A stretch of 64,000 bases of DNA from the NCBI GenBank assembly GCA_017533785.1, contig JAFWII010000004.1, forward strand, positions 1 to 64,000. Reading direction: 5' to 3'. The stretch comes from Erysipelotrichaceae bacterium (GTDB lineage: Bacteria > Bacillota_I > Bacilli_A > Erysipelotrichales > Erysipelotrichaceae). Of this stretch, positions 58,206-61,367 are shown one piece after another (positions within the stretch are counted from its first letter, which is position 1; every line of letters begins with the position of its first letter). A program made the translations under genes and the position numbers. The notes beneath the pieces were generated by a model that was not told where the DNA came from, made no database searches, and saw only the letters and a program-made list of their open reading frames with translations.

Positions 58206-58263
58206 ACATCTCCCTCAGGATCTGTCCGGAGTAAAAAAAATAGTAAATAAATTTACTATTTTC
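58206..58263 (-). terminator. AT-only hairpin after rpsU and a second hairpin before phoH
   Basis: On the minus strand AATAGTAAA and TTTACTATT (58241-58262) make a 9-10 bp AT-only stem followed by eight T, overlapping the rpsU stop. A second imperfect hairpin, GACA..TCC and GGA..TGTC, lies at 58206-58227 before phoH. The first is a weak but plausible terminator. Confidence 0.5.
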
Positions 58264-58435
58264 CTTTTCTTGCTTTACGTGCAGCTTCCTGTTTTAACTT
58301 ACGCTTAACGCCCGGCTTAACGTAGTATTCGCGCTTACGAGCTTCAACCAGGGTGCCGTTACGGGAGACCTGACGCTTAAAACGACGTAAAGCATCATCT
58401 AACGGTTCGTTCTCTTTAACAATTACCTTCGCCAC
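58256..58435 (-). CDS. rpsU: 30S ribosomal protein S21
   Basis: The 59-residue basic protein is S21: [20 protein letters not shown], then [17 protein letters not shown] and [15 protein letters not shown]. The start is GTG at 58435, with GGGGG about 6 nt upstream. The frame stays open further, but the added residues have no match to S21. It has a promoter of its own at the end of the upstream gene. Confidence 0.95.
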
Positions 58436-58491: not shown

Positions 58492-59922
58492 TTATTTGAT
58501 GAACTGCTGAAGATACTTTTTGCACAGACCGCTGTCACCGGGATAGGATTCGTTTCCCAGAGAACGGGTGATATACTCTTCGTTCCCCTTTCCCAGCAGC
58601 AGAACGCAGTCAGCGCTGTTCGCCAGCATCAGCGCGGACAGGATCGCTTCCTCACGGTTTTCGATCAGCACATGCGGCGTCGAGACACCTGCCAGGAACG
58701 CCTTGTTGAGTTCGTTAGGGTCACGGTCGCCGCAGTCGTTTTCCGTCAGGATCAGCAGGTCGCAGTGTTTGCCCAGCAGCTGGGCAGCCTGCTGACGGAA
58801 GTTCTTCTCGCTCTTGGGATTGACGCCGTAGACAGCGATGATGCGGTGATAGGAATCCGTCGTTTCCTTCGCGTATTCGAGAAGATCGCGCAGAGCGCCG
58901 GTATTCTTGGCCCGGTCGACGATGACCCGGTAGTTCTGCCCGAGGCTGATGTTCTGCAGATAGCCCTGCGGGAAGCTCAGCTCATTCAGGTTCTTCAGGA
59001 CGAAATCAAGCGGATAGCCGCGCTGGGTCAGACAGGCGACGATCGCCAGTACCGGATAGACGCAGTTCTTTCCCAGAAGGTGCGTCGAGACTTCGAACTC
59101 TTCTTCGCCGTAGCGCAGAAGGAAACTCGTGTGATCCGGATAGATCCGGACGTCTCTGGCCTGATAGTCGTTGCTGTTTTTGAAGCCGAAGGTCACGCAG
59201 CTGTGATTCACGTTTCCGGGATTGACTGCCGGATCATCCCCGTTCAGGATGACGTCGCAGTTTTCCGGCAGACTTTCGATATAACTCTGGTAGTTCAGCA
59301 TATAATCCGTTTCGGAATCGTTGAATTCCCAGTCATCGGTATCTGTACCGACATAGACGAAGCTTTCCGGTGTGATCCCGGCCAGCTTCTTCAGTTCGAT
59401 GCCGGATAGGTTCAATTCATAGCAACAGGAAAGAACGCCGCTGTTTTTCATGGCACTCAGAATACGCTGGTTCTCGATGATCGTGAGCGTCGGCGCTTTG
59501 GAGAGACGTTCCGTATCCTGATAAAGGATGCCCATCGAGCCGATATAGCCGCACGGACGGTCAAAGGCGTCGATGATCTTTTTCATGGTATAGGCAGTCA
59601 GGTCGCGGTAATCGTTCCCGCCGACGATGATGTTCTCCATGTCTTTGGAGGGATTCTTATAGAAAGCCGCCGCAACGTGGTTCAGGGTATCGAGCGTGTC
59701 GTTGACGCGGATAAAGATGACGGGATAATTCGTATCGATGTCTTCGCTGTAGATGACGACCTTGGCGCCGTTTTTGACCGCTTCTTTTACGAAATCATGT
59801 CCGTTGTAGCGGACACCGCGGATGCAGAAAAAGATCGCGTCGATCATCGGCATGCGGCTGTCGCAGGAAAGCTGCTGAATCTCGATGTCCGGTGCGTTCT
59901 TAAAGAAACTGTTCAGTTTCAT
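58492..59922 (-). CDS. MurE-like Mur ligase paralogue with eroded active site
   Basis: The 476-residue protein aligns end to end with MurE, the enzyme that adds the third amino acid to UDP-MurNAc-dipeptide. The N-terminal domain ([32 protein letters not shown]), central and C-terminal domains are all there. Catalytic motifs are not: the P-loop GTNGKT reads GGNDYR; DHLDYH reads DDWEFN; DNPRSEDP reads [15 protein letters not shown] reads [12 protein letters not shown] reads GKGNE. It should not bind ATP normally. It overlaps mtaB by ATGA and precedes rpsU. A regulatory or structural role is an inference; an active ligase of altered chemistry is less likely. Confidence 0.85.
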
Positions 59923-61178
59923 AACGGCTGGCCCTCCATACCCTCTTCGGTTAGACCGGTAAAGCGAACGGGAAGACTCGTTCCGACAGGATACGTTCCC
60001 TTCACATTCGTATAGACATATTCACGGGAGTACCCGTAGCTTTGCCCTTTGTCGTTCTTTTCAATGAAAACGCGTGTCTCGGTGCCTAACAGAGAACGGT
60101 GATAGTTTTCTGTCTTTTTTGCCTCCAGCTCATTGACTTCATGGATACGTCGTTTCACGATATTGCCGTCAACGAAGTCGTTCCGGCTGTCAGCCGCCGT
60201 CCCGCGCTTGCGGGCATACGGGAAAAGATGTATAAAGCTGAAGTCGATCTCATCCAGGAAACGAAGTGTTTCCGCGAAGTCTTCATCGCTTTCTCCCGGA
60301 AAACCGACGATCAGATCGGTGCTCACGGAGATGTGCGGGATCTTTGAACGGATATAACCGACTTTTTCCTTAAAGAACTCTGTCGTATAAGGACGGTGCA
60401 TCTCCTTTAAGGTATGGTTGCTGCCAGCCTGCAGCGGAATGTGCAGGTGCGGTGCGATCTTGGGCTCTGATGCCATAAAATCGATCATTGCGTCCGGGAT
60501 CTCGGTGATCTCGATCGAGGAAAGACGGATCGTCTGCAGCTTCTCGATCTTCACGAGTTCTTTCAGCAGATCGAGCAGATGGTATTCTCCGTCAAAGTAG
60601 CGTCCGGTATGGATACCGGTAAGAACGATCTCGTTGGTGCTTTCGGCAAAGCGCTTCGCCTGCGCGATGACGGCTTCATGAGCGGCGCTGCGTTCTCTTC
60701 CTCTTGTATAAGGGATGATGCAGTATGCGCAGAACTGGTTGCATCCGTCTTGGATCTTCAGGAAGGCTCTGTCCTTCCGGCTGTAGTCTTCGAGAGGCAT
60801 ATCTTCAAAAACAAGTCCTTCAAGATCGCCGACTTCGCGGGAACGGACATTTTCGTCGATCAGTCTTTTGATCTCCTTCTTCCCCTTCGTTCCGATCAGA
60901 AGATCGGCTTCTTCAAAGACAGAGGCTTTCGGATCAGCCTGCACATAACATCCGACGACCGCGATAAAGGCGTCCGGGTTCAGCCTTCTGGCCTGGCGGA
61001 TGAACTTTCGTGTCTTGGCCTCCGCGATATTGGTGACTGCGCAGCTGAAGATGATATAGATATCCGCCCTTTCCTTAAAGGAGACTTTCTGATAGTCACG
61101 GTTCATCTCCTGCTCGGTATAGGCGGCTTCATAGTCATTGACTTTGCACCCGAGAACGAGTGTTGCGTATGTTTTCAT
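59919..61178 (-). CDS. mtaB: tRNA t6A37 methylthiotransferase MtaB
   Basis: MtaB converts t6A37 to ms2t6A37 in tRNAs reading ANN codons. The 419-residue radical-SAM protein has an N-terminal domain with three cluster cysteines (LGCKVNDYE, FSCAVTN, VGCYVQ), the radical-SAM motif CNQFCAYC (about 147-154), ITEIPDAMIDF and a C-terminal TRAM domain. The ATG at 61178 is the family start, and TATAAT ends 6 nt upstream of it. It opens the mtaB-MurE-like pair. Confidence 0.93.
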   Translation of the reverse strand: MKTYATLVLGCKVNDYEAAYTEQEMNRDYQKVSFKERADIYIIFSCAVTNIAEAKTRKFIRQARRLNPDAFIAVVGCYVQADPKASVFEEADLLIGTKGKKEIKRLIDENVRSREVGDLEGLVFEDMPLEDYSRKDRAFLKIQDGCNQFCAYCIIPYTRGRERSAAHEAVIAQAKRFAESTNEIVLTGIHTGRYFDGEYHLLDLLKELVKIEKLQTIRLSSIEITEIPDAMIDFMASEPKIAPHLHIPLQAGSNHTLKEMHRPYTTEFFKEKVGYIRSKIPHISVSTDLIVGFPGESDEDFAETLRFLDEIDFSFIHLFPYARKRGTAADSRNDFVDGNIVKRRIHEVNELEAKKTENYHRSLLGTETRVFIEKNDKGQSYGYSREYVYTNVKGTYPVGTSLPVRFTGLTEEGMEGQPL

Positions 61179-61184
61179 AGTACG

Positions 61185-61190
61185 ATTATA
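61185..61190 (-). promoter_or_regulatory. -10 hexamer of mtaB (leaderless)
   Basis: TATAAT on the minus strand ends 6 nt before the ATG at 61178. Confidence 0.6.
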
Positions 61191-61367
61191 AACTCCCTTT
61201 GTGAAAATTGAAAGTTCTGCACTACAAAGCAAAACAGAACCTATAACACGGTTTCGAAGTTCCGGAATTCCCCGATAAAATGGGCGTTTCTTGACATCCG
61301 CGCATGGATGTGATTAACTTTTATTATTGTTATTGACTTTAAACAGTTAGGAGTGTGATGATCCTTT
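61191..61367 (+). promoter_or_regulatory. Leader and promoter region of the CorC operon
   Basis: A TTGACA at 61291-61296 is followed after 17 bp by TTAACT with a TGA before it, a plausible promoter. The small hairpin ACATCC and GGATGT lies at 61294-61311. AGGAG is at 61349-61353, 14 nt before the ATG, rather far. No magnesium riboswitch could be identified in this stretch. Confidence 0.4.

Follow-up and report, generated by a model that had tools for sequence, protein, structure and literature searches.

A probable pseudoenzyme descended from the cell-wall ligase MurE is retained under selection in Erysipelotrichaceae

Why would a bacterium keep a full-length homologue of MurE in which nearly every catalytic motif has been replaced? 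The question arises from a gene in the window, by which we mean the whole 64,000-nucleotide stretch analysed here, the first part of contig JAFWII010000004.1 of an Erysipelotrichaceae bacterium. Sequence comparison leads us to conclude, with a probability of roughly 0.93, that the encoded protein is a pseudoenzyme, that is, a protein with MurE homology and without the catalytic motifs that is retained under selection. The features of the locus are as follows.

58256..58435, minus strand: rpsU, downstream, GTG start proposed (open reading frame and locus comparison)
58492..59922, minus strand: MurE homologue predicted to be catalytically dead, the mtaB-linked 'A' copy, 476 amino acids (open reading frame, Pfam, TIGR01085, AF2)
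58495..58956, minus strand: domain 3, C-terminal, residues 323-476; amino-acid site lost, GKG.E kept (alignment)
58720..58743, minus strand: former DxPR amino-acid motif, now ENDCGDRD, residues 394-401 (alignment)
58900..58920, minus strand: former VDYAHTP motif, now VDRAKNT, residues 335-341 (alignment)
58957..59637, minus strand: domain 2, the central ATPase domain, residues 96-322; catalytic residues lost (alignment)
59290..59292, minus strand: position of the carbamylated lysine (E. coli K225), here Tyr 211 (alignment)
59320..59337, minus strand: former DHLDYH motif, now DDWEFN, residues 196-201 (alignment)
59605..59622, minus strand: former P-loop, GGNDYR in place of TGTNGK, residues 101-106 (alignment)
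59638..59922, minus strand: domain 1, uridine-side, residues 1-95; DSR (21-23) and GH (41-42) kept (identity comparison of pseudoenzyme pairs)
59919..61232, minus strand: mtaB, upstream, overlapping the MurE homologue by 4 bp (ATGA) (Radical_SAM and UPF0004)

The MurE-type open reading frame at 58492..59922 comprises 476 codons on the minus strand and is full-length. Its product scores above the Pfam cut-offs for Mur_ligase, Mur_ligase_M and Mur_ligase_C, and reaches 203.5 bits against TIGR01085, the NCBIfam MurE model, which is below the family cut-off of 257.3. The AF2 model is confident (mean pLDDT 92.8, pTM 0.89) and its best match in the PDB is T. maritima MurE (4bub, Z 40.6). Pfam, the model and structure matching all place the three-domain Mur ligase fold along the whole length of the protein, in agreement with an initial annotation made from the sequence. 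The likeness to MurE (TIGR01085; T. maritima 4bub, S. aureus 4c12, E. coli 1e8c) extends throughout the fold, at Z of about 40, and the protein, a direct descendant of an intact MurE of the family, keeps DSR...GH, NxDD and GKG.E. It departs from MurE in its score below the cut-off and in the absence of the P-loop lysine, the carbamylated lysine, DHLDYH, R390 and DxPR.

To place these losses we anchored residue numbering on E. coli K-12 MurE and aligned the window protein with seven relatives. K120, H211, K225, R342, R390 and R417 are missing from all eight copies, and catalytic residues are also lost in 30 further pseudoenzyme copies. D28, S29, R30, T159, G465, K466 and G467 are retained in 8/8, and R193 is replaced by lysine in 8/8. 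The window protein has neither the DHLDYH motif nor R390, and its DxPR position reads NDCG; NxDD and GKG.E are kept, and the uridine-side DSR and GH of domain 1 are present both here and in the other pseudoenzyme copies. K120 has become R, Q or V in the eight copies tested, with lysine present in a few copies from genus g3. The carbamylated-lysine position is non-lysine in every pseudoenzyme copy and is otherwise freely variable, the former P-loop differs by lineage (GGNDYR, GCEGQS, GNYGRC, GSYGKS), and most copies no longer have the SS pair and the initial T of TTP, residues in the lining of the substrate pocket. Because the same pattern of loss recurs in the 39 copies compared, from three genera, chance or sequencing error is ruled out. 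The substitutions that the initial annotation listed for the P-loop, DHLDYH, VDYAHTP and DNPR are confirmed. Its reading of GKGNE as a further alteration is not, since GKG[DN]E is normal among intact relatives and the glutamate is retained.

The initial annotation had proposed a search of the genome for a normal murE. The window genome (G000; 1.80 Mb in 46 contigs, 88% complete) does hold one, here called MurE-B, which scores 396.6 bits, above the TIGR01085 cut-off of 257.3, and carries GTDGKT, EHLNTH, VDYAHTP, EDPR and GKGSE; murC, murD and murF are also encoded. Among the fetched loci of 39 pseudoenzyme genomes, the replacement MurE is of type B in 14 and of type D in 17. Outside the fetched loci, six of the other eight have an additional MurE match, full or partial, and no second MurE was seen in the remaining two (G220 and G234), both of which are fragmented assemblies, one of them 57% complete.

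A relative of the window protein is present in 58 of 60 relatives, mostly as the same mtaB-linked gene. Of about 80 family copies of that gene examined, the majority are intact, and in many relatives it is the sole MurE; as judged from sequence, the mtaB-linked 'A' copy is the old MurE of the family. A wider family search enlarged the compared pseudoenzyme set from nine to 39 copies in three genera. In the tree, the dead copies from g1, g72 and g3 cluster together with support 100 beside intact copies, which answers the earlier suggestion that a Mur tree be checked for a clade keeping the same losses in many species, and every listed mtaB-linked copy in g3 falls below the MurE cut-off. This indicates a single loss of ligase chemistry, in the common ancestor of these three genera of Erysipelotrichaceae. 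Most of the genomes with a dead copy carry another intact MurE (B or D), and thus the dead copy outlived the swap of the working ligase.

The dead MurE is under strong purifying selection across species. Close g1 pairs give dN/dS values of 0.05-0.13 for this gene, against 0.03-0.09 for mtaB and 0.02-0.07 for MurE-B, and g3 gives 0.04-0.09; the values of the dead copy are comparable with the 0.02-0.12 of intact MurE copies. Such selection, together with the occurrence of copies across many species, bears out the earlier statement that the gene is intact and not a decaying pseudogene.

The constraint is unevenly distributed. In the g1 dead copy, domain 1 is the slowest to change (dN 0.03 versus 0.11 and 0.13 for the other domains), whereas in the MurE-B of these genomes it is the fastest. 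When the 39 copies are compared in pairs, domain 1 is more alike than domains 2 and 3 (M and C) in 426/426, 110/111 and 165/166 pairs of rising similarity, together 701 of the 703 pairs under 75% identity; for the 426 pairs below 45% identity, domain 1 stands at 54.5% versus 35.0% for M and 32.6% for C. The comparison is in part an independent check, as 30 added copies were absent from its first version. Intact A, B and D copies follow the opposite mean trend, with domain 1 less conserved than M and C. Recent g3 pairs have the three domains about equally constrained and the shift towards domain 1 is clearest at deep divergence, which indicates that the whole protein matters and that domain 1 is least free over long times. 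An RNA element was considered as the source of the 5' conservation and rejected, as there is no Rfam match and comparisons of G000 with G001 and G003 show no reduction of synonymous change in domain 1.

DSR, GH, T159 and the change of R193 to lysine are fixed among the pseudoenzymes. Outside domain 1 there are ten newly fixed positions, seven of them between residues 131 and 193 (P ~2e-4, the region having been chosen post hoc). T159, S185 and R193 of E. coli MurE are residues that we take to contact the dipeptide, and the newly fixed residues would cluster where UDP-MurNAc-dipeptide would sit.

Several other explanations of the locus have to be weighed against the pseudoenzyme reading. A still-working MurE-type ligase, for which the complete fold and the retained GKG.E and NxDD might be cited, has a practically negligible probability given the loss of the P-loop lysine, the carbamylated lysine, DHLDYH, R342, R390 and DxPR and the presence of another MurE in the genome. 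Decay of a gene carried along by its coupling to mtaB alone would fit the 4-bp overlap and the several independent erosions of this gene seen only where another MurE exists (see below). It would not account for the low dN/dS, for a frame that is open in 39 copies save those cut by a contig end, for maintenance down to ~35% identity or for the non-random retention of domain 1, and we regard it as very improbable. The true start of mtaB is probably an internal ATG near 61178. We give no more credence to the suggestion, made in the same annotation, that the protein links wall synthesis with translation through mtaB and rpsU. These neighbours are stable, with mtaB present in 29 and rpsU in 27 of the 30 pseudoenzyme loci added later, but mtaB equally adjoins MurE in 69 of 82 first-round family loci, most of which have a catalytically intact copy. 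As mtaB is adjacent to intact MurEs too, the gene order is ancestral, predates the loss and is uninformative about a new role.

Acquisition of a new enzymatic activity, through an active site reassembled from different residues, would fit the strong purifying selection on the whole protein and the residues newly fixed around the old dipeptide cleft. We consider it improbable, because there is no new conserved polar catalytic set, the P-loop is lineage-variable and the carbamylated-lysine position is free. A stronger competitor, though one we still think unlikely, is a protein that acts purely as a scaffold or allosteric partner and binds no small molecule. The constraint on domain 1 and the newly fixed surface or cleft residues would suit an interface too, and Mur enzymes form complexes (PMC6420597). 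PAP11, a MurE homologue, is a peripheral component of the plastid RNA polymerase (PMC12681378), and its structures (8r6s) are among the best matches of the AF2 model. PAP11 is thus a case of the MurE fold in a non-wall role, with a likeness to the window protein that is one of fold only. It differs in being a plastid protein with extra N-terminal sequence and other partners, and it is less degenerate, as the tobacco protein in our alignment still has a TGTNGKTT P-loop and DHLDFHG. Against a pure scaffold are the retained uridine-side residues DSR and GH, and also the coexistence of the dead copy with either B or D. This alternation across pseudoenzyme genomes led us to reject a dedicated partnership with one specific working MurE.

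We therefore return to the pseudoenzyme reading and to what such a protein may do. That a dead copy is kept in a gut bacterium and its relatives suggests that it does something else the cell needs. After the loss of ligase chemistry from the old mtaB-linked MurE in the ancestor of g1, g72 and g3, the tripeptide would be made by a different MurE, of type B or, in part of g3, of type D, and the dead copy would be retained for a non-catalytic job. What we infer of its ligand, partner and regulatory output is as follows. The protein would hold UDP-MurNAc-peptide through the conserved domain 1 and the refashioned dipeptide cleft, would be unable to use ATP or an amino acid, and would either report the precursor level or hold precursors or partners in a cytoplasmic Mur assembly. 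Binding of UDP-MurNAc-peptide in this way, as a sensor or scaffold, has in our estimate slightly less than an even chance. GlmR/YvcK, whose fold is unrelated, is a precedent for the regulation of wall synthesis in response to a UDP-sugar. A role in sensing or scaffolding wall precursors would plausibly fit the retained uridine-side domain; domain 1 of S. aureus MurE contains the uridine site (PMC3829189). Substrate affinity may nevertheless be gone, as the pocket-lining SS and first T of TTP are mostly lost, and the conservation of domain 1 could reflect a protein interface equally well.

The window protein resembles bacterial pseudoenzymes generally in having lost its catalytic motifs and being retained under selection. 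A literature search that covered few subscription papers found no report of a bacterial Mur ligase pseudoenzyme. Mur ligases are usually viewed as essential enzymes with one purpose, and as drug targets. A dead MurE maintained by selection over long times would uncouple catalysis from a second, hidden function, which could then be tested, and it also means that not all MurE hits in these genomes can be counted as ligases.

Erosion of the mtaB-linked copy has occurred elsewhere in the family. In genus g60, the genomes in which one MurE each was found (G071, G110, G262, G264) keep its catalytic motifs; in G134, G266, G263 and G265 a second MurE is present and the mtaB-linked copy is eroded, in two separate groups. 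Eroded copies also lie beside another MurE in G025 and G053. None of 38 copies from single-MurE genomes is eroded, versus 12 of 42 from multi-MurE genomes, counts that represent few independent events. Fisher's test of erosion against a second MurE gives 2e-4, a value that ignores kinship and predates the added g3 and g60 genomes, and an independent-pairs test gives p 0.5 with 3 pairs only. Genus g60 is a natural experiment, in which a single MurE is kept intact and the first MurE is eroded where a second exists. We speculate, with considerable doubt, that the family MurE had a second, non-catalytic role, located mainly in its uridine-binding domain, that survived repeated independent loss of the ligase (in the three-genus clade, two g60 genome pairs and single genomes), making a dedicated UDP-MurNAc-peptide sensor out of a biosynthetic enzyme.

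Additional MurE genes of the family have features of their own. Both MurEs of G134 are altered, with HNPKDED and GRGSY in type B (L108) and GTYGKTT, ENVESHG and VDYARTAVC in the mtaB-linked copy (L084). The D-type MurE of g3 (L207, L210, L213, L217, L221, L224 and others), which replaces type B in some members of that genus, is a distinct type that reads DDPS[ST]ED at the DxPR position and VDFAFTPNS at that of VDYAHTP. In G238 (L232:1435-4359; see also G215:C34) a B-type MurE shares a single open frame with a part that, judged by eye, is amidohydrolase-like, and in two g3 genomes the MurE match lies in an open frame of ~1,050 amino acids. Single in-frame TAG codons are common to the MurE matches of related genomes, in the mtaB-linked copy of G158, G160 and G181 and in the second MurE of G049, G051 and G056. 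Two intact MurEs, the mtaB-linked copy and another, occur in G129, G069 and about 20 further genera; in G129 and G069 (L109, L113) the second lies between a PBP-like gene and mraY- and murD-like genes, in a dcw-type cluster.
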